DNA of 64,000 bases from Muribaculaceae bacterium (GTDB taxonomy: Bacteria; Bacteroidota; Bacteroidia; Bacteroidales; Muribaculaceae), in assembly GCA_022509205.1 (NCBI GenBank), contig JAFLTR010000002.1, positions 1-64,000 on the forward strand, given 5' to 3'. Below the pieces are notes generated by a model. It searched no databases, was not told the DNA's origin, and worked only from the letters and a program-made list of their open reading frames with translations. Shown here piece after piece: positions 47,309 to 62,142 of this stretch (positions within the stretch are counted from its first letter, which is position 1; every line of letters starts with the position of its first letter). The translations under genes were made by a program, and so were the position numbers.

Positions 47309-48631
47309 ATGATCATGGGAAAAACCTGCGGGAGAATTTTAGTTGTGGATGATAATTTGGGAGTAAGAAGGACTCTCAAGGTTATTTTGTCTCCTTACTT
47401 TGAAGAAATACATTCTATTGGATCTCCTACTGAAATTCTGTCTTCGATCGCTGAATATAAGCCTGATGTAGTTTTATTAGACATGAATTTTAAGGCAACT
47501 GTAAATTCCGGCAACGAAGGACTGTTTTATCTAAATGAAATTAAATCTAAATATCCTGGCATAGAGGTTGTGTTATTCACTGCTTACGGAGATATCCCTT
47601 TGGCAGTGGAAGGAATGAAAAAAGGTGCTTTCGATTTTATAGAGAAACCTTGGGATAACGAAAATCTGACTGAAACCCTGAAAAAAGCTGCAGCCAAAAG
47701 CCGATCGCAAAAGTCTTCTCCTTCCTCGGTTGATTCCATGTATTGGGGTAATTCTCCAAAAATTACTGAAATAAGGGAGGTCATAAATAAAGTTTCACCA
47801 ACCGATATATCTATTTTGATTACCGGAGAAAACGGTGTCGGCAAGGATATTGCAGCTAAAGAGATCTTTTCAAGGAGCCTAAGAAAAGATAAGCCTTATA
47901 TAGCGGTAGACATGGGTGCTATTACTGATTCATTACTCGAAAGCGAGCTTTTCGGACATGTGAGGGGCTCATTCACCGGTGCGGTCTCTGACCATAAAGG
48001 TAAATTTGAACAAGCCCAAGGTGGAACTTTATTTTTAGATGAAATTGGTAACCTGTCTTTGCCATCGCAAGCAAAACTTTTAAGAGCCATTCAAAATAGA
48101 GTAATCACAAAAGTCGGTGGAGACAAGGAAATACACGTTGATGTCAGAATAATCAGTGCAACAAACAAGGATTTGAAGAAAGAAGTTGCAGAAGGTCGGT
48201 TTCGCGAAGACTTGTTCTATAGACTTGCAGGATTTCAAATTGAAATGCCTGCATTAAGGGAAAGGAAGGAGGATATAATCGGGTTGGCAGATCATTTTCT
48301 TGAAATCTATTCAAAGAAATATCATAAGAACATTGAAAGTATAGAGATGGAAGCGCTGCTTTATCTGAAAGAACATCATTGGCCCGGAAATATCCGACAA
48401 ATGAAGCAGTTGATAGAGAAAGCTGTGATCTTCGCCGATGGAGACTCCTTGAAAATAGGAGATTTGAAAGCGGGCATATCTCCGGTCTATGAAAATGAAA
48501 AATCTCAGGATGAGAAAGAAATGATTGTAGAAGCATTATCCAAGACCGGAAGAAATATCAGCAAGGCTGCGAAGCTTCTTAATATGAGCCGACCTACCCT
48601 ATATTCCAAAATGAATAAATATAATCTTTGA
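47309..48631 (+). CDS. Module A sigma-54-dependent response regulator (NtrC type)
   Basis: A 440-aa enhancer-binding response regulator. The receiver domain (1-120) has the acidic pair near 14-15, phospho-acceptor Asp58 (LLDMN), Thr91 and Lys113. The AAA+ domain (about 145-380) has Walker A GENGVGKD (173-180), Walker B LFLDEI (241-246), and sigma-54 contact loop GSFTGA (220-225), an unusual variant of GAFTGA. A Fis-type HTH closes the protein (ISKAAKLLNMSRPTLYSKMNKY). A second ATG at 47315 is an alternative start. It is coupled to its kinase by TGATG and probably activates the promoter at 49669. Confidence 0.93.
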   Translation: MIMGKTCGRILVVDDNLGVRRTLKVILSPYFEEIHSIGSPTEILSSIAEYKPDVVLLDMNFKATVNSGNEGLFYLNEIKSKYPGIEVVLFTAYGDIPLAVEGMKKGAFDFIEKPWDNENLTETLKKAAAKSRSQKSSPSSVDSMYWGNSPKITEIREVINKVSPTDISILITGENGVGKDIAAKEIFSRSLRKDKPYIAVDMGAITDSLLESELFGHVRGSFTGAVSDHKGKFEQAQGGTLFLDEIGNLSLPSQAKLLRAIQNRVITKVGGDKEIHVDVRIISATNKDLKKEVAEGRFREDLFYRLAGFQIEMPALRERKEDIIGLADHFLEIYSKKYHKNIESIEMEALLYLKEHHWPGNIRQMKQLIEKAVIFADGDSLKIGDLKAGISPVYENEKSQDEKEMIVEALSKTGRNISKAAKLLNMSRPTLYSKMNKYNL

Positions 48632-49500
48632 TGAATACCTGGATTTGGATAGCCATTGTGGCGGGAGTAGCTATAATCACAATTTTTGTTACTATAGCTA
48701 TGATCAAACACAAGACAGTCAGGAAAATCAATTATATGTTTGATGCCTTTGAGGATGGAGAAACCAATTTCAAATTCAGAGAGAAAGGCAACTTAAACAA
48801 ATCGTTGAACAGATTAAGGGGAATTTTTGAAAAGCAAAAGATTGCAAACGAACAAGAATCATGGACTAAACTTACCCGAGTTCTTACTCATGAAATCATG
48901 AATACGCTGGCTCCGGTCGTCAGCCTGACTGATTCCTTAAACAGAAATGAAAAAATTCTTGAAGATGAAGTTCTGAAAGAAAGTCTTGATATAATTTCGG
49001 ACTCATCGCACCACCTGATAGAATTTGTTAACACATATCGTCAGATAACGGGGATTGCCCGACCCGTAAGACAAAGAATAGATCTTAAGAAAGTCATAGA
49101 GAAAACTATAAAACTGCATGAACAGTTGCTTTCAGAGAAGAATGTTGAAACACTGACCGAATTTCCTGAAGAAGAAATTATAGTGTATGCAGATGAAATG
49201 CAACTGACTCAAGTGTGTCAGAATTTAATCAAGAATGCCTGGCAAGCGGATGCTTGCAATATTGAATTTCATTTAAAAAGATTGTCAGACGATTCTATAG
49301 TTTTATGGGTAAAAAATGATGGGCATCCGATACCTCTTGAGGCGCAGGAGCAAATCTTCATACCATTCTACACAACTAAAGAAGATGGCACAGGTATAGG
49401 TTTAAGCGTTTGCCGACAAATTATGAGATATCATAAAGGATCTATCGACTTATTGCGCAGTAATTCCACAGAAACCATCTTTGAGCTCTCTTTTATTTGA
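48631..49500 (+). CDS. Module A sensor histidine kinase (NtrB-like, one TM helix)
   Basis: A 289-aa histidine kinase with a single N-terminal transmembrane helix (TWIWIAIVAGVAIITIFVTIAM) and almost no periplasmic part. A linker follows, then the DHp helix with H87 in LTHEIMNTLAP, and a HATPase domain with the N box LIKNAWQAD and the G2 box GTGIGLSVCRQIM. There is no PAS domain and no extracytoplasmic sensor, so the signal must come through the membrane or the cytoplasm. The ATG overlaps the regulator stop by one base (TGATG). The listed TTG start at 48628 is less likely. Confidence 0.9.
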   Translation: MNTWIWIAIVAGVAIITIFVTIAMIKHKTVRKINYMFDAFEDGETNFKFREKGNLNKSLNRLRGIFEKQKIANEQESWTKLTRVLTHEIMNTLAPVVSLTDSLNRNEKILEDEVLKESLDIISDSSHHLIEFVNTYRQITGIARPVRQRIDLKKVIEKTIKLHEQLLSEKNVETLTEFPEEEIIVYADEMQLTQVCQNLIKNAWQADACNIEFHLKRLSDDSIVLWVKNDGHPIPLEAQEQIFIPFYTTKEDGTGIGLSVCRQIMRYHKGSIDLLRSNSTETIFELSFI

Positions 49501-49590
49501 ATCTGATTAAATGTAGTGGGTCTGGCTCCGGCATTATAAGTCAAAAATATAGAGCCTGAACTCATCAACTCATAAATATATGCAAATAGA

Positions 49591-49624
49591 TGTACGATGT
49601 CGGTCATTTGTCCGATATCGTACA
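49591..49624 (+). promoter_or_regulatory. Module A palindromic activator site (candidate UAS)
   Basis: TGTACGATGTCGG (49591-49603), eight bases, then CCGATATCGTACA (49612-49624): 13-base arms with one mismatch. The centre (about 49607) is about 88 bp upstream of the predicted start of transcription, the usual place for an NtrC-type regulator. The best candidate ligand is the module A regulator encoded just upstream. This pattern is seen in the sequence; binding is inferred. Confidence 0.7.
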
Positions 49625-49668
49625 TTCTTTATTTTTAACTATATCCTGATAATTAAACGATTACATTA

Positions 49669-49685
49669 TTGGCACGCTCATTGTA
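49669..49685 (+). promoter_or_regulatory. Sigma-54 promoter of module A efflux operon
   Basis: TTGGCACGCTCATTGTA matches the -24/-12 consensus TGGCAC-N5-TTGC[AT] closely, with GG at -25/-24 and TTGT at -12. The predicted start of transcription is about 49696. The same GGC[AG]CGCTCATTGT core occurs in module B (58591). Confidence 0.85.
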
Positions 49686-49727
49686 TCCATAATGTTAAAA
49701 ATGACCATAAGTATCAGGCAAATTAAA

Positions 49728-50975
49728 ATGGATAGAGAATTAACAAAAGAGGAAAAGCGGAAAGAGTCATGGAAACTTTATCTAAGAATAGGGAGTGGCG
49801 TATTATTACTCGCCGTTATTATAATCTGTTTCTCCTTTTTTCTTGATGACAGTATCGATCAAAAAAATATTCGCACGGCAATAGCAGAAAAGGCTACATT
49901 GGAAAGCAGCGTATCGGCTACAGGAAAAATTGTACCACTTTATGAACAAACTATTGTTTCACCGGTGGCTACCAGAATTCTTGAAGTATACTGCGATGAA
50001 GGGGACTCTGTGGTGTCAGGCCAATCGTTATTAAGACTTGATCTTGAGTCTGCGGAAACAGAAAGGAGAAAATTAGCTGATGAAGTTTCCATGAAAAAAA
50101 TAGAATTAGAACAGACTTCCCTTAATACTGAAACTTATCTCACAGACCTCGAAATGAAAATCAAGACTAAGGAGATGGCTGTAGACCATCTGAAAGCGGA
50201 AGTGGAAAATGAGAAAAGGCTTGACAGTATCGGTAGTGGCACCGGCGACAAAATACGCGAGGCAGAACTTGCATACTCTACAGCTCAATTGGAACTCAGG
50301 CAATTAAAAACTCAATTAATGAATGAAAAGAAAACACATGCAGCTATTTATAGGAGCAAACAATTGGAAGAAAGCATTTCTCAAAGAAATCTTCTTGAAA
50401 TGGAACGCACTCTGGATGATGCTAAGGTCAAGGCGCCTAAAACCGGAACAGTGACCTATCTTAACAAAACTTTAGGCACAAGTATTGGCGCAGGAGAAAG
50501 GCTTGCGGTGGTTTCAGATCTTTCCCATTTTAAAATTTCGGCAGAAATTTCAGAAGGTAATGCGCCTAAAATCTCGATTGGTTCTGCTGTCAAGATAAGA
50601 TTCAATAAAAATACTTTAGAAGGTCATATCAGTAGTATTTCCCCGCAAAGTCAAAATGGAATGGTGGAATTTAACATTCTTTTAAATGATGACAGCGATA
50701 AGAGATTAAGATCAGGACTGAGAACCGAGTTAAATGTTGTCTATGATATTCACGATGATATTGTTAGAATACCGAACGGACAATTTTTTCAAGGTCCCGG
50801 CATCTATTCAATGTTTGTTAAGATATCACCCGATAAACTGGAAAGGCGTTCCGTAACACTTGGAGACAGTAATTTTGATTTTGTAGAAGTGAAAAGCGGC
50901 ATAAATCCCGGAGAAGAGGTAGTAATCACAGACATGTCTGATTATAAAGCGAAAAAGACTCTCACATTAAAATAA
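49728..50975 (+). CDS. Module A HlyD/MacA-type periplasmic adaptor protein
   Basis: A 415-aa membrane-fusion protein linking an ABC transporter to an outer-membrane channel. It has an N-terminal transmembrane helix (LYLRIGSGVLLLAVIIICFSFFL), a lipoyl/hairpin region (YEQTIVSPVATRILEVYCDEGDSV), a long coiled coil (about 110-205), then KAPKTGTVTYLNKTLGTSIGAGERLAVVSD and a membrane-proximal domain. The listed start at 49692 is at or before the predicted transcription start (about 49696), so I use ATG 49728 (MDRELTKEEKR). The homologous module B protein also begins MDKEL. Confidence 0.9.
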   Translation: MDRELTKEEKRKESWKLYLRIGSGVLLLAVIIICFSFFLDDSIDQKNIRTAIAEKATLESSVSATGKIVPLYEQTIVSPVATRILEVYCDEGDSVVSGQSLLRLDLESAETERRKLADEVSMKKIELEQTSLNTETYLTDLEMKIKTKEMAVDHLKAEVENEKRLDSIGSGTGDKIREAELAYSTAQLELRQLKTQLMNEKKTHAAIYRSKQLEESISQRNLLEMERTLDDAKVKAPKTGTVTYLNKTLGTSIGAGERLAVVSDLSHFKISAEISEGNAPKISIGSAVKIRFNKNTLEGHISSISPQSQNGMVEFNILLNDDSDKRLRSGLRTELNVVYDIHDDIVRIPNGQFFQGPGIYSMFVKISPDKLERRSVTLGDSNFDFVEVKSGINPGEEVVITDMSDYKAKKTLTLK

Positions 50976-51056
50976 GTAGTAAACCTACTTAGGTTTGGAT
51001 AAAATATATGGAATTTAATTTTTAACAACTGCTTAGACAAATAATCATCAATTTAT

Positions 51057-51731
51057 ATGGAAATAATCAAACTACAAGATGTAGCCAAAGTCTATCGAAC
51101 TAAGGAAATAGAGACGTTGGCCCTTGAAAATGTAAATCTGGAGATACGAAAAGGTGAATTCGTAAGCATAATGGGACCCTCTGGTTGTGGTAAATCTACC
51201 CTTCTCAATATCATCGGTCTTCTTGACAATCCCACCTCCGGTGAAGTCAGAATATTGGATGAATTAACCGTTTCTTTAAACGATTCCAAACTTTCCGCTT
51301 TCCGTAACGAAAATATCGGTTTTGTTTTTCAGAGTTTCCATCTTATTCCCTCTCTTAATGTCACGGAGAATGTTGCTCTTCCGTTGATCTACAGGTCCGG
51401 ATTATCACATAAAGAGCGCATCAGAAAAATCGAAGAAGTTCTGACCCGGCTTGGATTGAGCCACAGAATGCGTCATTTCCCCTCTCAACTTTCAGGAGGT
51501 CAATGCCAACGAGTAGCTATTGCAAGAGCTATCGTGGGAGATCCCAAAATAATACTTGCCGACGAGCCTACAGGTAATCTTGATTCCAAAATGGGTCAGG
51601 AAGTTATGGATATTCTCCATCAGCTAAATAAAGAAGATGGGAAAACTATCGTTATGGTGACTCATAATGAACATCAGGCCCGAGAAACCGACCGCATCAT
51701 CAGATTTTTTGATGGGCGCCAAGTGGGCTAA
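51057..51731 (+). CDS. Module A ABC transporter ATP-binding protein (MacB/LolD type)
   Basis: A 224-aa nucleotide-binding subunit. It has Walker [10 protein letters not shown] at about 40-48, the Q loop FVFQSFHLIPSLNV, the ABC signature [15 protein letters not shown], Walker [13 protein letters not shown] and the H-loop VMVTHNEHQ. This is the classic LolD/MacB/FtsE-type subunit partnering a separate FtsX-like permease. The DNLDxN variation gives no functional clue. It follows the adaptor gene by 81 bases and precedes the first permease by 44. Confidence 0.94.
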   Translation: MEIIKLQDVAKVYRTKEIETLALENVNLEIRKGEFVSIMGPSGCGKSTLLNIIGLLDNPTSGEVRILDELTVSLNDSKLSAFRNENIGFVFQSFHLIPSLNVTENVALPLIYRSGLSHKERIRKIEEVLTRLGLSHRMRHFPSQLSGGQCQRVAIARAIVGDPKIILADEPTGNLDSKMGQEVMDILHQLNKEDGKTIVMVTHNEHQARETDRIIRFFDGRQVG

Positions 51732-51775
51732 ACTTTAAGGGTATCACAACTTCTTAAGCTAAAATTTTCCCAATC

Positions 51776-53068
51776 ATGAACTATATAAAACAATTATTAT
51801 ATGAACTCCGGAATCAGAAGCTGGTGACTTGGGTCAGTATTTCCGGGACAGCTCTTGCAATCTTCCTTATTATGGCCACTTTCATGGCAGATAAAATAAC
51901 CAATGTCAGTATAGCTCCCGAATCAAACCGTGACAGGATCTTAAAAGGTCAGAACATTGATTTCCATTCTCAAGACGGTTCCAGCGGTAGCGGGTGGGGC
52001 ATAGATTATAATCTGGCTAAGAGACTCTACGAAAATCTCGATGGGGTGGAAAGATTATCCTTTATCGCTTATACCTGGAATCCGTATGATGTGGGATTGC
52101 CAAAACAAAACACCATTACTGCCCAGGGCCTGGAAGTGGATGATGAATTCTGGAAGATATATGACTACAAATTTATTTCAGGATCGCCATTTGAGAAAGC
52201 CGAAATTGAAGCAGAAAAAAATTTAGCCATCATAACAGAAAGCACGGCACGTGATCTTTTTAAAGAAACCGATGTGGCAGGAAGAGATATCGATATTGAT
52301 GGACAACCCTACCAAATCAAAGGTGTGGTGGAAGATTCTTTTCCATTGCTTCCGGATGGCACAGTCAAGGTTTTCACCAATTTTTCAAAAAAAGGGTTTG
52401 AAACAAGTTTTGGTGACGGTTTTTTTGGTAAAAGCTCAGTGAGACTATTGCTCGAACCCGGTGTTGATCCTGAAAAGGTGAAACAACAGGTTGAAAAGAG
52501 ATATGCAGATATCAACAGAGAGATTGCTCCGGAAGGAAATGAATTGAAATATCACATGCAACCCTATACCTCTGCTGAGATGAGTTCCGGATCTTTTGGA
52601 AGTAACAATGATCCACAACTCAAATACAAAACGCGACTGAAAGCCCTTATCTATATCATTCTTCTTTTGTTGCCTGCCATCAATCTTAGCAGCATGACTC
52701 AAAGCCGGCTTCAAAAAAGAATCTCGGAAATTGGTGTCAGAAGAGCCTTTGGGGCGAAAAGGAGGGTTATAATCTTCCAAATTTTCACAGAAAATCTAAT
52801 TTTATCTTTTGTAGGAGGAGTGATAGGATTAGGATTAAGCTTGATCTTTATTGCATTTCTAAGCGGTTATTTTGTTTCCGTGACAGATTTAGATTTTAAC
52901 GCAATAACCACATTCAATCTCTCACCGGTGATCTGGCAAATTTTTGATTTCTCAGTTTTCTTCATAGCCTTCGGGTCCTGCTTCGTTTTAAATCTTCTTA
53001 GTGCTTTTGTACCAGCCTGGAGAGCCTCGGCTGTAGAGCCCGCAGTAGCTATTTCAAAAACCCGTTAA
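51776..53068 (+). CDS. Module A ABC permease 1 (MacB_PCD/FtsX)
   Basis: A 430-aa permease. It has an N-terminal transmembrane helix (LVTWVSISGTALAIFLIMATFM), a periplasmic MacB-type domain (about 45-290), and three C-terminal helices (near 300-318, 345-370 and 395-420) of the FtsX fold, including RLQKRISEIGVRRAFGAKRRVIIFQIF. The conserved VKMSEIGVRRAFGA-like stretch before the helices is characteristic. It is joined to a second single permease (gap of 10 bases), suggesting a heterodimeric membrane part. Substrate is unknown. Confidence 0.9.
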   Translation: MNYIKQLLYELRNQKLVTWVSISGTALAIFLIMATFMADKITNVSIAPESNRDRILKGQNIDFHSQDGSSGSGWGIDYNLAKRLYENLDGVERLSFIAYTWNPYDVGLPKQNTITAQGLEVDDEFWKIYDYKFISGSPFEKAEIEAEKNLAIITESTARDLFKETDVAGRDIDIDGQPYQIKGVVEDSFPLLPDGTVKVFTNFSKKGFETSFGDGFFGKSSVRLLLEPGVDPEKVKQQVEKRYADINREIAPEGNELKYHMQPYTSAEMSSGSFGSNNDPQLKYKTRLKALIYIILLLLPAINLSSMTQSRLQKRISEIGVRRAFGAKRRVIIFQIFTENLILSFVGGVIGLGLSLIFIAFLSGYFVSVTDLDFNAITTFNLSPVIWQIFDFSVFFIAFGSCFVLNLLSAFVPAWRASAVEPAVAISKTR

Positions 53069-53078
53069 TCTAAAAAAT

Positions 53079-54308
53079 ATGAAAAGAGCATTGTTGAGCC
53101 AGATGGCTCATGAATGGAAAAACAATATATGGCTGATAATCGAACTTGCCATTGTAACTTTGGCTATTTGGGCTATCATGACTTTGCTTTGGGTGTTATG
53201 TAAGGGCCTAACACAGCCATTAGGGTTCAACCCTACGGATGTTTATACTCTTGATGTAAAAAGTGTGCCGGAATCAAGCCCATATTTTCTTGCCGATTAT
53301 AAAGATAAATATTTTGAAGACAGAAATAAGCTCATAGAAAGGCTTAGAAACAACCCACATGTGGAAGCAGTGAGCCTTCACAACAATTTTGCTCCATTTG
53401 AATATAATTACAGCGGCAATTTCTTCGAAGTAGAAGGTTGGATTCCTGAATCTATCGGATACACGGGTAATGTCAGAAGAGCGGAACCCGAAATTGTCAG
53501 GATTTTGGATATAAAAAGCACCACGGGAAAATCTCAGGATCAACTAATAGGCATGTTACAAAGAGGAGAAGTATTGATTTCTCATAATCGTGGTGTCGAG
53601 CAAAAAATGGGTCCGATTGAAAATATCATAGGGAAAAAAATTTATCCTTATCAGGAAGAGGAAAAAGGGAAAAGAATCGGTGATGTGGTGGATAGAGTCA
53701 GAAGAAGCGACTATGAATATGAAGATAGAGGAGTATTGATTGTGCCAATCGATCCTGTTACGGAATGGGGTGACATTATTTTGAAATTAAAATCGGGTCA
53801 AATCCAAGATTTCATTAATGATTTCAATTCCGACCCTTCTCTTTCTCATCTCCGAAACATCTACCTGTCGAATTTGAAAAGCCTTGAAAAGAAAGGAGAA
53901 GCTTTAAATAAAGAAATTGAAATCAACATACGATTGATGGTTGCCATTTCTTTCTTCCTTTTGGTGACAATATTCCTTGGTCTTCTGGGATCATTCTGGT
54001 TCCGAGTGCAGCAAAGGGTCAGTGAATTTGCAATTCGTAAAACATTCGGAGCCAAAGATTCCGAATTGTTCCGAAGGATTCTGGGAGAAGGTCTGTTGCT
54101 TTTAGTAGCTTCCTTGTTGCTTGTTTCAGCCTGTGTATGGCCTTTTATTAAAAAATTGTCTGACTATACCGGTGAGGATTGGTGGGTGTTCATTGCATTC
54201 GAAGGTATCGTGACCGGGGTCATGGCCATAGGGATTATCCTGAGCCTTTCCTATCCTGCCTGGAGAGCCATGAAGATAGAACCCGCCATTGCCGTTAAAG
54301 AGGAATAA
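53079..54308 (+). CDS. Module A ABC permease 2 (MacB_PCD/FtsX)
   Basis: A 409-aa paralogue of permease 1. It has an N-terminal helix (WLIIELAIVTLAIWAIMTLLWVL), a periplasmic domain (about 50-290), and the C-terminal FtsX block with VSEFAIRKTFGAKDSELFRRIL and LLLLVASLLLVSACVWPF. It diverges clearly from permease 1 in the periplasmic part, which fits an asymmetric transporter. Its stop lies 37 bases before the tolC-A start. Confidence 0.9.
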   Translation: MKRALLSQMAHEWKNNIWLIIELAIVTLAIWAIMTLLWVLCKGLTQPLGFNPTDVYTLDVKSVPESSPYFLADYKDKYFEDRNKLIERLRNNPHVEAVSLHNNFAPFEYNYSGNFFEVEGWIPESIGYTGNVRRAEPEIVRILDIKSTTGKSQDQLIGMLQRGEVLISHNRGVEQKMGPIENIIGKKIYPYQEEEKGKRIGDVVDRVRRSDYEYEDRGVLIVPIDPVTEWGDIILKLKSGQIQDFINDFNSDPSLSHLRNIYLSNLKSLEKKGEALNKEIEINIRLMVAISFFLLVTIFLGLLGSFWFRVQQRVSEFAIRKTFGAKDSELFRRILGEGLLLLVASLLLVSACVWPFIKKLSDYTGEDWWVFIAFEGIVTGVMAIGIILSLSYPAWRAMKIEPAIAVKEE

Positions 54309-54345
54309 TTGTAGATTAATCAACTTCAATTGCAATCCAAAAATA

Positions 54346-55827
54346 ATGCGAATCATTAAAATTCTCATATTAATTTATATTTGTTTGTCATGCAAGGGAG
54401 TAATGAGGGCGGAGAGCCGGGCTCTCCCCCTCTCTCTCCAAGATGCAATGGCGCGGGCTCGTACTAACAGTGTAGATGCTGAGGTTGCCTTAAATCAATT
54501 AAAAAGCGCTTATTGGTCATATCGCTCATATAAGGCAGAATTATTGCCCGAACTTTCCCTTTCCGCAACTGTGCCATCCTACCATAAACAATACAGTCCT
54601 TACATGGATGATACTGGAAGTTATACATTTGTCGCCAATAATTTCCTTCAACTTAACGGTGAATTATCCATTACTCAAAATATATGGTTGACAGGCGGCC
54701 AATTATCCGTAAACTCTTCCTTGGATTTTTATAGGCAGTTAGGGAAAGGCGCCTTCAATCAGTTTATGTCAATACCGGTTGCTTTGACACTTTCACAACC
54801 AATTTTCGGAGTGAACAATATCAAATGGGACAGAAAAATCGAACCTGTCAGATATGAGGAAGCCAAGGCTGAATTCCTTAGCGCTACAGAAAATGTGGCC
54901 CTCTTGGCAATTCAGTATTACTTTTCTTTTCTTTTAGCAAAGGAGAATCTCTCGATTGCAAGGAAGAATCTTGAAAGCGCAGAAAAACTATATGAAGTGG
55001 CCCTTGAAAAGAGGGAAATGGGAAGAATTAGCAAGAATGATCTTTTACAGATGGAACTGAATCTTCTGGATTCCCGCACGGAGGTGACAGATTGTGAAAG
55101 TAACTATAAGAGCAGCATGTTTCAACTCACTACATTCCTTGATTTTGATGAAGGAACAGACATAAGTGCCACAGTACCGGAAGACGTGCCCTTTGTGGAA
55201 ATAAATTATGACGACGCTCTTAATAAAGCGGAAACAAATAATAGTTTCTCAAAAAATATGATGCGGATTCAGCTGGAAGCCGACTATGCAGTGGCTCAGG
55301 CCAAGGGATCGCAACGTGAGATCAATCTTTTTGCTCAGGTGGGATACACGGGCACCGATCATTATTTAAGTGGAAGTTACAGCAATCTAAAAAGCAATCA
55401 GATTGTGCAGATCGGTTTTGAGATTCCTCTTGTCGATTGGGGTCGACGAAAAGGACAGGTTAAGGTAGCCGAAAGTAATCGTAAACTTGTGGAAAGTCGA
55501 GTGAGGCAAGAGACAATGAATTTCCGGCAAAATCTTTTCATCCTGATAGAAAGATACTCCAATCAGTTGCAACAACTTCAGATTGCAAGGCGGGCAGATG
55601 AAATTGCTCAAAAAAGATATGCCACTAATGAGGAGACATTCTTGATCGGCAAGATTTCTACTCTTGATTTGAATGATTCCCGATTGAAAAAAGATGAAGC
55701 ACGACGTAATTTTGTAAATGAACTTTATCTGTTCTGGTATTATTTTTATCAGATCCGAAGTCTGACTCTGTGGGATTATGCCCTAAACACTCCCATCGAA
55801 ACCGATATAGAAGCTTTTGTAAAATAA
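54346..55827 (+). CDS. Module A TolC-type outer-membrane efflux protein
   Basis: A 493-aa outer-membrane channel of the TolC/OEP family. It has a signal region (MRIIKILILIYICLSCKGV), two OEP repeats with helical hairpins (about 60-250 and 290-480), and family stretches such as LSLQDAMARARTNSVDAEVAL and LAIQYYFSFLLAKENLSIARKNLESAEKLYEVALEKREMG. The listed start at 54289 would overlap the permease 2 end; ATG 54346 puts the signal peptide at the N-terminus. It completes the tripartite pump. Confidence 0.9.
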   Translation: MRIIKILILIYICLSCKGVMRAESRALPLSLQDAMARARTNSVDAEVALNQLKSAYWSYRSYKAELLPELSLSATVPSYHKQYSPYMDDTGSYTFVANNFLQLNGELSITQNIWLTGGQLSVNSSLDFYRQLGKGAFNQFMSIPVALTLSQPIFGVNNIKWDRKIEPVRYEEAKAEFLSATENVALLAIQYYFSFLLAKENLSIARKNLESAEKLYEVALEKREMGRISKNDLLQMELNLLDSRTEVTDCESNYKSSMFQLTTFLDFDEGTDISATVPEDVPFVEINYDDALNKAETNNSFSKNMMRIQLEADYAVAQAKGSQREINLFAQVGYTGTDHYLSGSYSNLKSNQIVQIGFEIPLVDWGRRKGQVKVAESNRKLVESRVRQETMNFRQNLFILIERYSNQLQQLQIARRADEIAQKRYATNEETFLIGKISTLDLNDSRLKKDEARRNFVNELYLFWYYFYQIRSLTLWDYALNTPIETDIEAFVK

Positions 55828-55841
55828 ATTTGTTAATTTTG
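55825..55841 (+). promoter_or_regulatory. Tandem -7 boxes for module B two-component genes
   Basis: TAAATTTG (55825-55832) overlaps the tolC-A stop codon, and TAATTTTG (55834-55841) ends four bases before the regulator ATG. They suggest an independent, nearly leaderless transcript for the module B regulator, separate from the sigma-54 module A operon. Confidence 0.45.
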
Positions 55842-55845
55842 GATT

Positions 55846-57171
55846 ATGATATTGATAATCGATGATGATGAGGCCATCAGACTTTCCTTAGGGTTCCTGC
55901 TTAAAAAAGCCGGATATGAATGTGACATGGCAAGTAATCCTGACGAGGCTTTACAAAAAGTGAGGCAACGTGAGTATGAACTCATCCTTATGGATATGAA
56001 TTTTAGCCGGGACACAAGCGGCAGAGAGGGGCTGGAACTTTTAATGAAAACAAAAATATTCCGTCCTGAAAGTCCGGTGATTTTAATAACGGCATGGGGC
56101 AGCATAGACCTGGCAGTAGAAGGCATGAGGGCCGGGGCATACGATTTCATCACTAAACCTTGGCATAATCTTATGCTCCTTCAGCGAATTGAAACGGCAA
56201 TTAAGTTAAATGCCACCCGACAGGAGGAGCCAACGGCTGCCGGCTTTGACAGATCCGGCATAATCGGCAACAACCAAGCTTTAATCGAACTGTTATCCAC
56301 AGTAGAAAAAATATCACCTACTGATGCTCCTGTACTTATTTTAGGGGAAAACGGCACAGGGAAAGAACTTATCGCGAATGCCATCCATAAAAATAGTAAA
56401 CGCAAGGAAAACCCATTTGTAATGGTAAATCTCGGGGGCATTTCCAGATCTTTGTTCGAGAGTGAAATGTTCGGTCACGTAAAGGGTGCTTTCACGGGTG
56501 CCACAACTTCCAGAAAAGGCAGATTTGAAGTTGCCGACAAAGGAACTATTTTTCTTGATGAAATAGGAGATCTTGATTTGGGAAGTCAGGTGAAACTTCT
56601 CAGGGTCTTACAGGAACATAAATTTGAACCTTTAGGTCAGAGCGTTACTAAAAAAGTGGATATAAGAGTGATTTCCGCCACTAATGCCGATATTCCTCAA
56701 ATGGTGACCGACAAATCTTTTCGCGAAGATTTGTTCTATCGTATAAATCTTATCACCCTTAGAATCCCTCCGCTTCGAGACAGAAGGGACGACATACCTC
56801 TATTGGTTAGACATTTCATCCGGCAGGCGGCTCATGCTAATGGACTGGAAGTCCCTGAAATCAAATCCGAAGCTATTGAATTTCTATGCAGGCTCCCCTA
56901 TCCGGGTAATATACGGGAGTTGAAGAATATAATAGAAAGAGCCGTGATAACCGGTGGCACTCAATTAGATAAGAGTGATTTTTCAAATTTTATTTTAAAT
57001 ACCGACACCCCTCCATTAGCCTCCACACCTACAAATCTTGAAGAAATTGAAAAGAAAGCGTTGCAAGAAGCGATGGAAAAATCTAATGGTAATTATACTC
57101 AGGCTGCCAGGATTTTAGGAGTGACCCGTCAGAGCCTTTATCGAAAACTTGAAAAACATGGCTTGAAATGA
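55846..57171 (+). CDS. Module B sigma-54-dependent response regulator (NtrC type)
   Basis: A 441-aa paralogue of the module A regulator. The receiver domain has DDD at 6-8, Asp50 (LMDMN), Thr82 and Lys104. The AAA+ domain has GENGTGKE (168-175), the standard sigma-54 loop GAFTGA (214-219) and TIFLDEIGDL. The Fis-type HTH is YTQAARILGVTRQSLYRKLEKHGL. Its ATG follows tolC-A by 18 bases. It ends in an ATGA overlap with its kinase. It probably activates the promoter at 58591 through the TGTAAAG palindromes. Confidence 0.94.
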   Translation: MILIIDDDEAIRLSLGFLLKKAGYECDMASNPDEALQKVRQREYELILMDMNFSRDTSGREGLELLMKTKIFRPESPVILITAWGSIDLAVEGMRAGAYDFITKPWHNLMLLQRIETAIKLNATRQEEPTAAGFDRSGIIGNNQALIELLSTVEKISPTDAPVLILGENGTGKELIANAIHKNSKRKENPFVMVNLGGISRSLFESEMFGHVKGAFTGATTSRKGRFEVADKGTIFLDEIGDLDLGSQVKLLRVLQEHKFEPLGQSVTKKVDIRVISATNADIPQMVTDKSFREDLFYRINLITLRIPPLRDRRDDIPLLVRHFIRQAAHANGLEVPEIKSEAIEFLCRLPYPGNIRELKNIIERAVITGGTQLDKSDFSNFILNTDTPPLASTPTNLEEIEKKALQEAMEKSNGNYTQAARILGVTRQSLYRKLEKHGLK

Positions 57172-58445
57172 GATTTTCTTTCAGTTTCCTGATATTGTCT
57201 TTGTGTTTCCTGGCATTTGTGGTGATGGCTATAGTCGGAGACATCCCTTATTGGGCATGGTTTATTCCCACCGGCATAGGCATAATGTCAACCCTTACTG
57301 TCTTTAGAGGCACTTATCTTCCTCAAAGCGCTGTGACACGCGGCATGGAATTGATACAGTCACAAGATTACAACAATAGGCTTGTGAAAGTGGGCGAACC
57401 AAGTGCAGATAGAATCGTGGAGCTATTCAACTCTCTGATTGACAAACTTCGGGCCGAAAGATTATTAAACCGAGAGCAGGAAGGTCTTCTCACTTTGCTC
57501 ATAGAGGCTTCTCCCATGGGAGTGGTAATGCTGGATTTCGACAACAGGATCTCTATGGTGAACAAATCTTTCTTGAAAATATTCGGTGTAATGAAAGCGG
57601 AAGAAATAGAAGGAAAGAAAATTAACGAACTCCATTATGATCTGATAGATAGAGCCATTACAGTGCCTCTTGGCAAATCTGAAATAATCCGCGAAAACAG
57701 TTTCAAAATTTATCGGGTGTATCATCTGAATTTCCTGCAAGAAGGATTTAAGAGAGAGTTCTATCTCTTGGAAAGTCTTACAGATGAAATTATGAAAGCC
57801 GAGAAGGCTTCTTATGAAAAAGTGATCAGAACAATTTCCCATGAAATCAATAACACTATGGGAGGAGTACGCTCTGTGCTTGAAGTTATCGGAGATAGCA
57901 GTGAGGACCCTGAAATAAAGAAGGTTGTTGAAAGTTGTGACCGACGGTGTGAAAATATGGGAAATTTCATTCGCGAATATGCAGAAGTAGTGAAATTACC
58001 CTCCCCCGTGAAGAAATCAATAGATCTACAACAGGAAATACAGGCCATGCTGCCTTTTCTTCAGCATCTCGTTCCTGAGAATGTTAGCTTAATCTTCCGC
58101 CAAAAACCATCTTCTTTTAAAATCGATGGTGATTCCGCTCTATTGCAACAGGTGTTGCTCAATATTGTAAAGAATGCCATTGAAAGTATCGAGGGAACCG
58201 GTTTTATTGAAATTGAAGTTTTTGAAGATAATCATAATATAGTGTTGCAAATATCCAATAATGGACTTCCCATTGACAATGATATTGCAAATCATCTCTT
58301 CACTCCTTTTTTCACCACAAAACCTGAAGGGAAAGGGATTGGACTAACTTTAGTAAGAGATGTCTTGACAAACCATTCCGCCGACTATTCTCTTTCAACC
58401 GATTCAGACGGAATAACAAGATTTACCATTACATTCAGGAATTAG
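57168..58445 (+). CDS. Module B sensor histidine kinase with PAS domain
   Basis: A 425-aa kinase. It has two N-terminal transmembrane helices (about 3-22 and 29-47) joined by a loop of only about seven residues, a HAMP-like region (about 55-100), and a PAS domain (about 105-205, EGLLTLLIEASPMGVVMLDFDNRISMVNKSFLKIFG). The DHp domain has H225 (RTISHEINNT), and the HATPase has NIVKNAIESIEG and GKGIGLTLVRDVL. The near absence of a periplasmic loop puts it with intramembrane- or cytoplasm-sensing kinases. The start ATG overlaps the regulator stop (ATGA). Confidence 0.92.
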   Translation: MRFSFSFLILSLCFLAFVVMAIVGDIPYWAWFIPTGIGIMSTLTVFRGTYLPQSAVTRGMELIQSQDYNNRLVKVGEPSADRIVELFNSLIDKLRAERLLNREQEGLLTLLIEASPMGVVMLDFDNRISMVNKSFLKIFGVMKAEEIEGKKINELHYDLIDRAITVPLGKSEIIRENSFKIYRVYHLNFLQEGFKREFYLLESLTDEIMKAEKASYEKVIRTISHEINNTMGGVRSVLEVIGDSSEDPEIKKVVESCDRRCENMGNFIREYAEVVKLPSPVKKSIDLQQEIQAMLPFLQHLVPENVSLIFRQKPSSFKIDGDSALLQQVLLNIVKNAIESIEGTGFIEIEVFEDNHNIVLQISNNGLPIDNDIANHLFTPFFTTKPEGKGIGLTLVRDVLTNHSADYSLSTDSDGITRFTITFRN

Positions 58446-58483
58446 GATATTTTCAAAGGTCTTATTCTGATAAAAACCAACCG

Positions 58484-58540
58484 AAAGTGTAAAGAATGTA
58501 AAGTAGACACTTTACAAAAGTGTAAAGACTTTACACTTTT
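58484..58540 (+). promoter_or_regulatory. Module B palindromic activator-site array (candidate UAS)
   Basis: The array has five copies of the half-site TGTAAAG/CTTTACA. AAAAGTGTAAAG-A-CTTTACACTTTT (58516-58540) is a perfect 12-base palindrome centred at 58528. TGTAAAGT-N4-ACTTTACA (58497-58516) is a second one. A lone AAAGTGTAAAG lies at 58484. The main palindrome is centred about 90 bp upstream of the predicted transcription start, matching module A, but its sequence is unrelated. The module B regulator is the likely ligand. Confidence 0.75.
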
Positions 58541-58590
58541 AAAATATGTAAAATTATATTAAATCATTGATAGTCAACATTATACAATTT

Positions 58591-58607
58591 TTGGCGCGCT
58601 CATTGTT
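58591..58607 (+). promoter_or_regulatory. Sigma-54 promoter of module B efflux operon
   Basis: TTGGCGCGCTCATTGTT fits the -24/-12 consensus, with GG at -25/-24 and TTGT at -12. The predicted transcription start is about 58618, giving a 16-nt leader to the tolC-B ATG. It is nearly identical to the module A promoter core. Confidence 0.82.
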
Positions 58608-58633
58608 ATAGTTGAGGGTGTAAAATTGATAAA

Positions 58634-59971
58634 ATGTTGAAAAAAATAACAGTTTTCTTCTATGCATGTGCTCTGGCTCTGTCATCTCAAATGACAGGGT
58701 CGGAGCCTTTGACTCTCCATGACTGCATGAGATATGCCATTTCAAGGTCAACAAAAATTAAGATTCAGAAAGCTGTCATTTCTGATAAAAGGCTTGAAAT
58801 ACGTGACGCAGTTTTAAGTGCTTTCACACCGGCTATCTCTGCATCGACTTATGCATACTATAATTTTGGCAGGAGTATTGACCCACAAACCAATACTTAT
58901 TTCAATCAGACCTCATTTCATAACAACTATTCTCTCTCAGCTTATATAGATCTGTTTGATGGGTTAACCGCCGTAAATAATATCAGGATTTCCAAAACCG
59001 GACTTTTAATCTCGCAATCGCAAGAAAAACAAGTGGAAGCTGATATTTGTCTTGCTGTAATGGAAGCATATTATAATGTTGTCTATTATTACAGGCTGCG
59101 TGAAGTGTATGAGAATCTTGTCGAGGATGCCTCGCAGGCTTTATCACTTGCCCGACGACAAGAGGCTTTGGGAGTAAAAGGATATGCCGATGTTATCCAG
59201 ATGGAGGCAGACTTGGCTGACAGAAAGTTCGACCTTATCTCCACTGAAAATATGGCCAACGACCAATTCATGACTCTAAAAGCACTTATGTTTTGGGATG
59301 AAGCGGAGGAATTGATGGTGGATTATACCCTACCCTCTTTTGTTGAAGAAAGTTTCGATGCTGAAATGATAACGTTGTTAGCCATGGATAATAATCCGGA
59401 GGTGAAGATGGCTACCTTGAACGTTGAAAATTCCGGAAGGGAATTAAGGGTGGCGAAGTGGTCATTACTCCCATCTATCACTTTATATGGGGGATGGAAC
59501 ACAAGTTTTTACACATATTCCGGATATCATTCCCCCTCTTATAGCAATCAGTTTCGAAACAATATGGGAGAATATGTTGAATTAGGTTTGACAGTGCCTC
59601 TTTACAATAGGTTAAAGGGAGTAACAAATATTCAAAAGAAAAAAAATGCCTATAACAATGCCCGTCTGGAACTTGAACAGAAAAAGATAGATATAGAAAT
59701 TGAAGTGAAAAGAGCCATACAGGATTGTGAGGGGGCTATGACTGCTTACACTCAGTCTTTGAAGAAATCTTCTCTACAAGAGGAAGCTTTCAAATTAAAT
59801 CAAAAGAAACTGGAACAGGGGTTGATTTCTCCTCTTGAATTCCGGATAGCCAACAACAATTATCTGAAAGCAAAATCCGATGAGATGAATTCTCTTTTTA
59901 AATATCTCATTAAACAAGCGGTTGTGAAATACTATAGCGGCATAGAATATATTAATCAAAGTCTCCTCTAA
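58634..59971 (+). CDS. Module B TolC-type outer-membrane efflux protein
   Basis: A 445-aa TolC-family channel with a signal peptide (VFFYACALALSSQMTGSEP). The two OEP repeats show LTLHDCMRYAISRSTKIKIQKAVISDKRLEIRDAVLSAFTPAISAST and ADRKFDLISTENMANDQFMTLKALMFWDE. Low-complexity coiled-coil helices follow toward the end (KKKNAYNNARLELEQKKIDIEIEVKRAIQD). It is first in its operon, whereas the module A channel is last. It is shorter than the module A channel (493 aa) and not a recent copy. Confidence 0.91.
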   Translation: MLKKITVFFYACALALSSQMTGSEPLTLHDCMRYAISRSTKIKIQKAVISDKRLEIRDAVLSAFTPAISASTYAYYNFGRSIDPQTNTYFNQTSFHNNYSLSAYIDLFDGLTAVNNIRISKTGLLISQSQEKQVEADICLAVMEAYYNVVYYYRLREVYENLVEDASQALSLARRQEALGVKGYADVIQMEADLADRKFDLISTENMANDQFMTLKALMFWDEAEELMVDYTLPSFVEESFDAEMITLLAMDNNPEVKMATLNVENSGRELRVAKWSLLPSITLYGGWNTSFYTYSGYHSPSYSNQFRNNMGEYVELGLTVPLYNRLKGVTNIQKKKNAYNNARLELEQKKIDIEIEVKRAIQDCEGAMTAYTQSLKKSSLQEEAFKLNQKKLEQGLISPLEFRIANNNYLKAKSDEMNSLFKYLIKQAVVKYYSGIEYINQSLL

Positions 59972-59973
59972 AT

Positions 59974-60045
59974 CTCCTTCAAAGGGGAGAGACTTGAAGT
60001 TCTTCTAATAGTTACCGACTTCAATCTCTTCTCCTCTTTGGGGAG
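59974..60045 (+). repeat. Long imperfect inverted repeat between tolC-B and hlyD-B
   Basis: CTCCTTCAAAGGGGAGAGACTTGAAGT (59974-60000) pairs imperfectly with ACTTCAATCTCTTCTCCTCTTTGGGGAG (60018-60045), giving a hairpin of about 27 base pairs with a short loop. It lies wholly in the spacer between two genes of the module B operon and could shape mRNA processing or expression ratio. It might also be a small dispersed intergenic element. Confidence 0.6.
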
Positions 60046-60076
60046 GGCAACGGAGATGTTCATCAAGTTTATCATT

Positions 60077-61333
60077 ATGGATAAGGAATTGCCGAAAATA
60101 ACAGGATGGCGAAGAGCAGTTACCAAGAAAGCTATACCCTGGTGGTGTGGAGGAATCGCGATAATTGCAATTGTAGTTCTTTTAGCCACAACATCTTCCA
60201 ACAGTATGAGAGTCGACAGGGCGAATCTCACTACAGCAACTGTTGAGAAAGGTGAATTTAATGATTATACCAGGATTTCCGGAAATGTCCAGCCTTTGGT
60301 TTCGGTGCAATTGTCACCCCACGAAGGTGGAATTGTTCAGGAAATATTGATAGAAGAGGGTTCTCAAGTAAAGACCGGAGATCCTATTTTGATTTTATCA
60401 AATGACAATCTCGACTTGCAAATTTTAAATGCAGAGGCTGAACTGGCTGAAAAAGAAAATATTCTCCGCAACACCATGATCCAAATGGAACAACAGAAAC
60501 TATCCGTGAGGCAGGAGGAACTGCAGTTGTCTACAGAAGTTAAAAGGAATCTTCGTAATTTTAGACAGCAGGAGGCATTATTCAAAGAGAAATTGATTCC
60601 TAAAGAAGATTACCTTAAAGCCAAAGAGGATTATGAGCTCGCTGAAAAAAGATTTCAACTGATAAAAGAAAGGTCGGCTCAGGATTCACTTTATCGAAGT
60701 GTTGAAATCCGGCAGATGCGACAAAGCCTTGAAAACATGCGGATGAATATGGAAATGATAAGAGGAAGAAAAGAGAAACTTATTGTCAGGGCTCCAATCG
60801 ATGGAGAATTGGGATTACTTGATGTGAATTTAGGTCAGTCAGTGGCTGAAGGATCAATGATCGGTCAGATAAATTCCATGGATAGTTATAAACTTGAAAC
60901 CAAGATAGACGAGCATTATATCGATCGGATTGTCCCGGGATTAATAGCTAATTTCGACAGGCAGGGGAAACAGTTTGAAGTAGTATTGAGAAAAGTTTAC
61001 CCGGAAGTTAGGGAAGGTAAGTTCCAGGCTGATTTCAAATTTGAAGAAGAACGTCCAGAGAATTTGAGACGCGGACAAACCTATTATCTTGATCTTCAAT
61101 TAGGTCAACCTGAAGAAGCAGTTATAATACCACGAGGCTCTTTCTACCAGAAAACAGGAGGGAGATGGATCTACGTGCTTGATAAAAATGGGAATAAAGC
61201 AACAAGGCGGGAAATTAAAATAGGACGTCAGAATCCACAGTATTATGAAGTGACAGAAGGTCTTGAACCGGGAGAACAGGTGATCGTATCTTCCTATGAT
61301 AGATTCGGCGATAACGAAACCCTCATATTTTAG
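60077..61333 (+). CDS. Module B HlyD-type periplasmic adaptor protein
   Basis: A 418-aa membrane-fusion protein. It has an N-terminal transmembrane helix (IPWWCGGIAIIAIVVLLATTS), a lipoyl region (SVQLSPHEGGIVQEILIEEGSQVKTGDPILIL), a long coiled coil (about 105-215) and the return strand VRAPIDGELGLLDVNLGQSVAEGSMIGQI. The listed start at 60038 is a TTG inside the inverted repeat. ATG 60077 (MDKELPKITGWRRAV) parallels the module A start MDREL. ATG 60056 is also possible. It probably joins the downstream ABC subunits to tolC-B. Confidence 0.9.
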   Translation: MDKELPKITGWRRAVTKKAIPWWCGGIAIIAIVVLLATTSSNSMRVDRANLTTATVEKGEFNDYTRISGNVQPLVSVQLSPHEGGIVQEILIEEGSQVKTGDPILILSNDNLDLQILNAEAELAEKENILRNTMIQMEQQKLSVRQEELQLSTEVKRNLRNFRQQEALFKEKLIPKEDYLKAKEDYELAEKRFQLIKERSAQDSLYRSVEIRQMRQSLENMRMNMEMIRGRKEKLIVRAPIDGELGLLDVNLGQSVAEGSMIGQINSMDSYKLETKIDEHYIDRIVPGLIANFDRQGKQFEVVLRKVYPEVREGKFQADFKFEEERPENLRRGQTYYLDLQLGQPEEAVIIPRGSFYQKTGGRWIYVLDKNGNKATRREIKIGRQNPQYYEVTEGLEPGEQVIVSSYDRFGDNETLIF

Positions 61334-61415
61334 TTTTTTTGAATAGTCGGAGTTTTTAAAGTTATAACAGATTCAACTAAGAGTACTTCAAGAACTCCGG
61401 CAAGAATCCCAAAAT

Positions 61416-61460
61416 AACTCTAACAACTCTAACAACTCTAACAACTCTAACAACTTTAAC
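61416..61460 (+). repeat. Five tandem copies of the 9-bp unit AACTCTAAC before the ABC-B start
   Basis: AACTCTAAC repeats at 61416, 61425, 61434 and 61443, then AACTTTAAC at 61452; the ATG follows one base later. The tract has no purine-rich ribosome site of its own. Because the repeat ends at the start codon, copy-number change would alter leader length or unwinding but not the reading frame of the protein. Confidence 0.85.
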
Positions 61461-61461
61461 A

Positions 61462-62142
61462 ATGATAAAAGTAGACAATCTTTCAAAAATCTTTCGTACA
61501 GACGAAATCGAAACGACTGCACTTAACGGAGTATCAATGGAAATCAAGGATGGAGAGTTTGTAGCCATAATGGGCCCATCAGGTTGTGGCAAATCCACCT
61601 TGCTCAATATCTTGGGTCTTCTTGATAACCCATCCGGAGGAAGCTATAAATTTGGGGATACGGAAGTGGCCGGTCTCAAAGAAAAAGAGCGGACCAAATT
61701 CCGTAAAGGCAATATCGGATTCGTATTCCAGAGTTTCAATCTTATAGATGAGCTTAACGTGTATGAAAATATCGAACTTCCTCTGAAGTATTTGAATATT
61801 TCCTCTTCCGAAAGAAAGAAAAGAGTGACTGAAATCATGAAAAGAATGAACATAAGTCACCGTGCAAAACATTTTCCTCGTCAGCTTTCCGGCGGTCAGC
61901 AACAACGTGTGGCAATAGCCAGGGCTATAGTTTCAAATCCGAAACTTATTCTCGCTGACGAACCGACGGGTAACCTTGATTCCAAGAATGGTCTTGAGGT
62001 GATGAACCTATTGACTGAACTTAATCAGGAAGGCACCACAATAGTGATGGTGACTCACTCTCCAAAGGATGCTGCCAAAGCTCAACGCACCATCGACCTT
62101 CTCGACGGCAAAATCGTTTCCGACATCTCTAATAATTTATAA
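61462..62142 (+). CDS. Module B ABC transporter ATP-binding protein (MacB/LolD type)
   Basis: A 226-aa nucleotide-binding subunit. It has Walker [10 protein letters not shown], the Q loop [13 protein letters not shown], the signature [15 protein letters not shown], Walker [15 protein letters not shown] and the switch His in [10 protein letters not shown]. It strongly resembles the module A ATPase (same [23 protein letters not shown]-terminus), so both came from one ancestor. It is directly preceded by the nine-base tandem repeat. The permease gene starts 90 bases further on. Confidence 0.94.

Follow-up and report, generated by a model that had tools for sequence, protein, structure and literature searches.

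It is a classical mechanism that NtrC-type regulators control sigma-54 promoters by way of palindromic sites upstream, and the regulators of the NtrC, ZraR and AtoC type are the closest described counterparts of the one that we designate REGB. REGB shares their receiver-AAA+-Fis HTH architecture, with the GAFTGA and Walker motifs all in place; its full-length relative in the PDB is the NtrC-family regulator 4l4u (315 bits), and its HTH matches Fis and ZraR. As in those systems, the palindromic sites of the locus described here (UAS-A) are found 80-100 bp upstream of the predicted sigma-54 start. The transporter genes of the same locus (operon A) resemble tripartite pumps of the MacAB-TolC type and form a complete efflux set, with an HlyD/MacA-like adaptor, a LolD/MacB-like ABC ATPase, FtsX/MacB-type permeases and a TolC channel; operon A differs from MacAB-TolC in that the ATPase and the two permeases are encoded by separate genes and a two-component system is placed at the end.

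A link between the two halves of this picture has been described: an enrichment of sigma-54 promoters upstream of COG0577 permease genes was reported for Bacteroidia and called the first evidence of such a link (PMC12316311, 2025). That survey predicts sigma-54 control of FtsX/MacB-type ABC permeases, and the passages of it that we retrieved deal with promoters only, naming no regulator, UAS or nested modules. In the literature searched, no description was found of a TGTMCG-N4-CGKACA site or of its ABC efflux operon target, and nothing direct on sigma-54 with either Bacteroides RteB or this transporter architecture. Beyond the known sigma-54/ABC permease link, the present analysis adds a correction of which regulator is assigned to the sites and the finding that two pump modules are nested.

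The window, that is, the whole stretch of 64,000 nucleotides of a Muribaculaceae bacterium that was analysed, contains two such modules, each with its own regulator-kinase pair (Table 1). Reading its sequence, we propose that an autoregulated ABC efflux operon is very probably controlled from positions 49591-49685, with REGB, encoded within the operon, as the putative reader of UAS-A, and that the upstream pair REGA-KINA most likely drives pump B. The assignment of UAS-A to REGB is drawn from co-occurrence and operon structure. Across Muribaculaceae-type genomes, the tandem UAS-A sites stand at fixed positions and travel with REGB, not with REGA.

Table 1. Coordinates of the genes and control elements of the two pump modules in the window.
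Feature	Positions	Strand	Remarks
REGA, NtrC-type response regulator	47309..48631	+	GSFTGA; putative reader of UAS-B, not of UAS-A
KINA, short membrane histidine kinase	48628..49500	+	partner of REGA
UAS-A distal site, TGTACGATGTCGGTCA	49591..49606	+	16 bp; 11/12 against TGTMCG-N4-CGKACA; centre 72.5 bp upstream of -24 GG
UAS-A proximal site, TGTCCGATATCGTACA	49609..49624	+	12/12; centre 54.5 bp upstream of -24 GG
Sigma-54 promoter A	49670..49685	+	TGGCACG-CTCA-TTGTA; predicted transcription start ~49696
hlyD-A, periplasmic adaptor	49728..50975	+	conserved ATG 49728, MDRE...
ABC ATPase A (LolD/MacB-like)	51057..51731	+	
FtsX/MacB-type permease 1A	51776..53068	+	
FtsX-type permease 2A	53079..54308	+	
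TolC-family outer-membrane channel A	54289..55827	+	
REGB, NtrC-type response regulator	55846..57171	+	receiver, AAA+ with GAFTGA, Fis-type HTH; putative reader of UAS-A
KINB, PAS histidine kinase	57168..58445	+	partner of REGB
UAS-B, TGTAAAGACTTTACA	58521..58535	+	centre 65 bp upstream of promoter B -24 GG; more half-sites upstream to ~58487
Sigma-54 promoter B	58592..58607	+	TGGCGCG-CTCA-TTGTT
Module B operon start: TolC-B, HlyD-B, ABC-B	58634..62142	+	FtsX-type genes follow

An earlier note on this DNA had pointed to a near-consensus sigma-54 promoter in front of hlyD-A, and the comparison with TGGCACR-N4-TTGCW agrees with it: TGGCACGCTCATTGTA is a good -24/-12 element, with GG and GC-type elements at the right spacing, though its -12 reads TTGT and not TTGC. 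TTGT is the commoner form among the 28 conserved loci (17, with TTGC in 8), so it is no defect of the promoter in the window. A search of the window with TGGCACG-N4-TTGYW returned promoter A as the single exact match; when up to two mismatches were allowed, the 15 matches were near the background of 11.3 expected, and the significance of promoter A therefore rests on its conservation. The genome encodes sigma-54 (rpoN; PF04552 at G000:C1:28019-28528). Near copies of the promoter elsewhere in the genome were rejected as promoters of similar operons, which they do not resemble, and on contigs C8 and C38 the copies fall within reading frames. From the spacing to the -12 element, transcription is predicted to start near 49696. 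The longer reading frame that begins at 49692 would then be unusable, being upstream of the transcript, and the start conserved in relatives, the ATG at 49728, would be preceded by a leader of 32 nt. Between the kinase stop at 49500 and this conserved start there are 227 bases, the same gap as had been given before.

The palindrome was likewise confirmed: TGTACGATGTCGG-N8-CCGATATCGTACA, at 49591-49624, has 13-bp arms that are complementary at 12 of 13 positions, and with its flanks the inverted repeat extends to 17-nt arms (88%). Each arm together with its inner flank is, however, a 16-bp near-palindrome in itself, so that the "13-bp arms" turn out to be a tandem pair of 16-bp sites whose centres lie 18 bp apart. 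Their consensus, TGTMCG-N4-CGKACA, was partly drawn from the relatives that were scored with it, and a version of the motif derived from the window only came before them. The genome-wide search for the palindrome that the earlier note had suggested returned a single occurrence in the 2.3-Mb assembly, also when up to three mismatches were allowed. TGTMCGNNNNCGKACA has one exact match in its own genome, the proximal UAS-A site, and with one mismatch it has 11 matches against 14 for a reversed-pattern control, which gives no wider UAS-A regulon in this genome.

The positions of the sites were compared in 28 distinct upstream regions, obtained from hlyD-A orthologs of genus and order relatives, from pattern matches and from named genomes; the named relatives are mostly MAGs of Muribaculaceae and other Bacteroidales. 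In 27 of the 28 loci the distance between the -24 GG and a site scoring at least 11/12 is 53-56 or 72-76 bp, whereas shuffled upstream sequence reaches the same criterion at 1.8e-5 per locus. Both places score at least 9 in 16 loci, and about 12 have a degenerate second site. The outgroup G056, with a REGB of 51% identity, is without UAS-A. Within the genus, an exact motif with a sigma-54 element behind it was followed by an hlyD ortholog in all ten readable cases; the eleventh (L156) is the hlyD locus of G008, where the scan gave no reading frame. The conserved position of the sites in 27 of 28 loci and the presence of rpoN thus uphold the view that an enhancer lies here at a workable distance from the sigma-54 promoter.

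Which regulator reads these sites is suggested by what surrounds the operon in relatives. In every relative locus of sufficient length the operon adjoins a REGB ortholog (51-81% identity), and KINB too where the contig allows; the two genes are nearly always the last of the operon, after TolC, and in the window a gap of only 18 bp separates TolC-A from REGB. In one locus, L178, REGB-KINB are divergent and upstream of hlyD, still beside the operon. The recognition helix of REGB reads TRQxLYR[RK] in 22 of 23 sequences scanned, and SRGALYRR in the remaining one. Two side observations concern these loci: in L039, L040, L047, L048 and L196 the hlyD-A operon contains further FtsX-type permease genes, by insertion or duplication, and L178 (JAMPHR010000009.1) belongs to a MAG titled Paenibacillus sp. 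that bears this Bacteroidales operon, a title that is probably wrong.

The earlier note had instead paired the palindrome with REGA, the regulator encoded just upstream. Adjacency speaks for this pairing, as 90 bp separate the end of REGA-KINA from the palindrome downstream and the same layout recurs in one further lineage, G108/HAN053 (L174, L213), the only relative with REGA/KINA beside operon A. However, UAS-A and hlyD-A are kept without REGA in 19 genus genomes; REGA accompanies a different site, UAS-B, in all seven genomes that hold it, three of them (G073, G109 and G025) without an hlyD-A ortholog; and in five genomes REGA-KINA are followed by UAS-B and then TolC-B. The distributions of hlyD-A/UAS-A and of REGA, as read from these assemblies, are a double dissociation, with the limits that some co-occurrence is to be expected of linked genes in any case and that related genomes do not count as independent; some REGA genes could be missing because the MAGs are incomplete, but several of the genomes without REGA are 92-99% complete. 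The pairing of REGA with UAS-A by adjacency is most likely wrong, and that UAS-A is the UAS of REGA appears very unlikely, although REGA may cross-regulate through UAS-A in the four genomes where REGA and hlyD-A occur together.

REGB being the preferred reader of UAS-A, a target for REGA is offered by the second module. REGA (at least 74% identity) is found in 7 of the 111 genus genomes searched, and the exact sequence TGTAAAG-N-CTTTACA occurs in the same seven and in G077, whose lone match was rejected as a real site because there is no sigma-54 element behind it. In all seven REGA genomes UAS-B lies 64-65 bp from the -24 element of TolC-B. REGA-KINA are followed by TolC-B with no operon A between them in G008, G025, G064, G073 and G109, the last with two small reverse-strand genes in the interval; in the window (47309-62142) and in G108 (L213) the whole of operon A, from hlyD-A to KINB, lies nested, with REGA-KINA before it and the TolC-B operon after it. 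Since REGA tracks UAS-B, the site before the next TolC operon (58634), one pump module is nested inside another, and REGA-KINA most likely use TGTAAAG-N-CTTTACA to drive the second pump operon, from 58634 onward. The recognition helix of REGA reads SRPTLY[SA]K (11 sequences scanned, some from overlapping loci), so the two modules offer two natural helix/site classes for the study of specificity, TRQxLYR with CG sites and SRPTLYS with AA sites. Pairing regulators with the nearest site may mislead where gene modules nest. Loci L116, L214 and L215 are examples of the non-nested REGA-KINA/TolC-B layout. KINA itself is a protein of 290 aa with one membrane segment and a THE motif near residue 87, and it has no Pfam HisKA match.

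A second alternative is that the inverted repeat is not a protein-binding site but an intrinsic terminator of the REGA-KINA transcript. A G+C-rich hairpin followed by a U-tract is formally present in the window: the + strand RNA would form 15 pairs (-23.3 kcal/mol, z -6.2), in which the single arm mismatch becomes a G.U pair, with the T-rich tail TTCTTTATTTTT behind, and no other UAS-A loci have hairpins as strong as the two nested ones (-23.3 and -25.0). Among relatives, however, hairpin strength and T content differ widely, and what is conserved is a 16-bp site whose distance to the promoter is fixed; this site often lacks a strong hairpin and is followed by few T. The site is also kept where the upstream gene is divergent and no terminator is needed (G033, G010, G032, G026, G012, G007, L178, L183 and L189). 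On this conservation pattern and the divergent upstream genes we reject termination as the primary function, and we regard a terminator in place of a binding site as highly improbable. As the long hairpin and T-tract are not conserved, 49591-49624 is best read as an enhancer (UAS) and not primarily as a terminator. In the outgroup G056 (L055), upstream of hlyD, a strong terminator-like hairpin with a T-tract, CTGGGCGAAGCGTCCATTAATGGACGCTTCGCCCAG, occupies the place of UAS-A.

Termination can be at most a second use of the inverted repeat, and such a use is possible where the strongest hairpins are found, with REGA-KINA directly upstream. A more far-reaching and rather doubtful version applies to the nested loci (the window and G108/HAN053): the UAS-A dyad would have been extended to a long hairpin with a second role as terminator of REGA-KINA transcription, and read-through of operon A across the 188-bp gap between KINB and TolC-B would couple pump B one-way to the REGB signal. 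If true, two nested pump systems would be wired together by position. Finally, it is most improbable that the main reader of UAS-A is another NtrC-type regulator encoded elsewhere in the genome, for although REG-like paralogs and further related kinases are present in these genomes and enhancer-binding proteins are able to act in trans, every relative locus of sufficient length has REGB linked to the operon, and REGB remains adjacent even after rearrangement (L178).

With REGB as the probable reader, the locus suggests the following course of events. KINB would phosphorylate REGB, dimers of which would bind the two UAS-A sites and assemble an AAA+ hexamer; by DNA looping, this hexamer would remodel the sigma-54 polymerase at 49670-49685. 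The transcript, starting at about 49696, would then yield the pump together with more REGB-KINB, closing a positive feedback loop. In the window this module is flanked by REGA-KINA on one side and by their likely target on the other. This would provide a concrete regulator-site assignment for a sigma-54 efflux operon in gut Bacteroidales, where control has so far mostly been predicted from promoters.

A third class of sites, approximately TGTATGATTTNTTKACA, was observed before related operons in five loci (L120, L121, L122, L123 and L124), upstream of TolC-B-like genes. In four of the five, the same cluster also encodes a regulator resembling REGA (44-48% identity), with the helix TRQTLYNK; L122 ends earlier.
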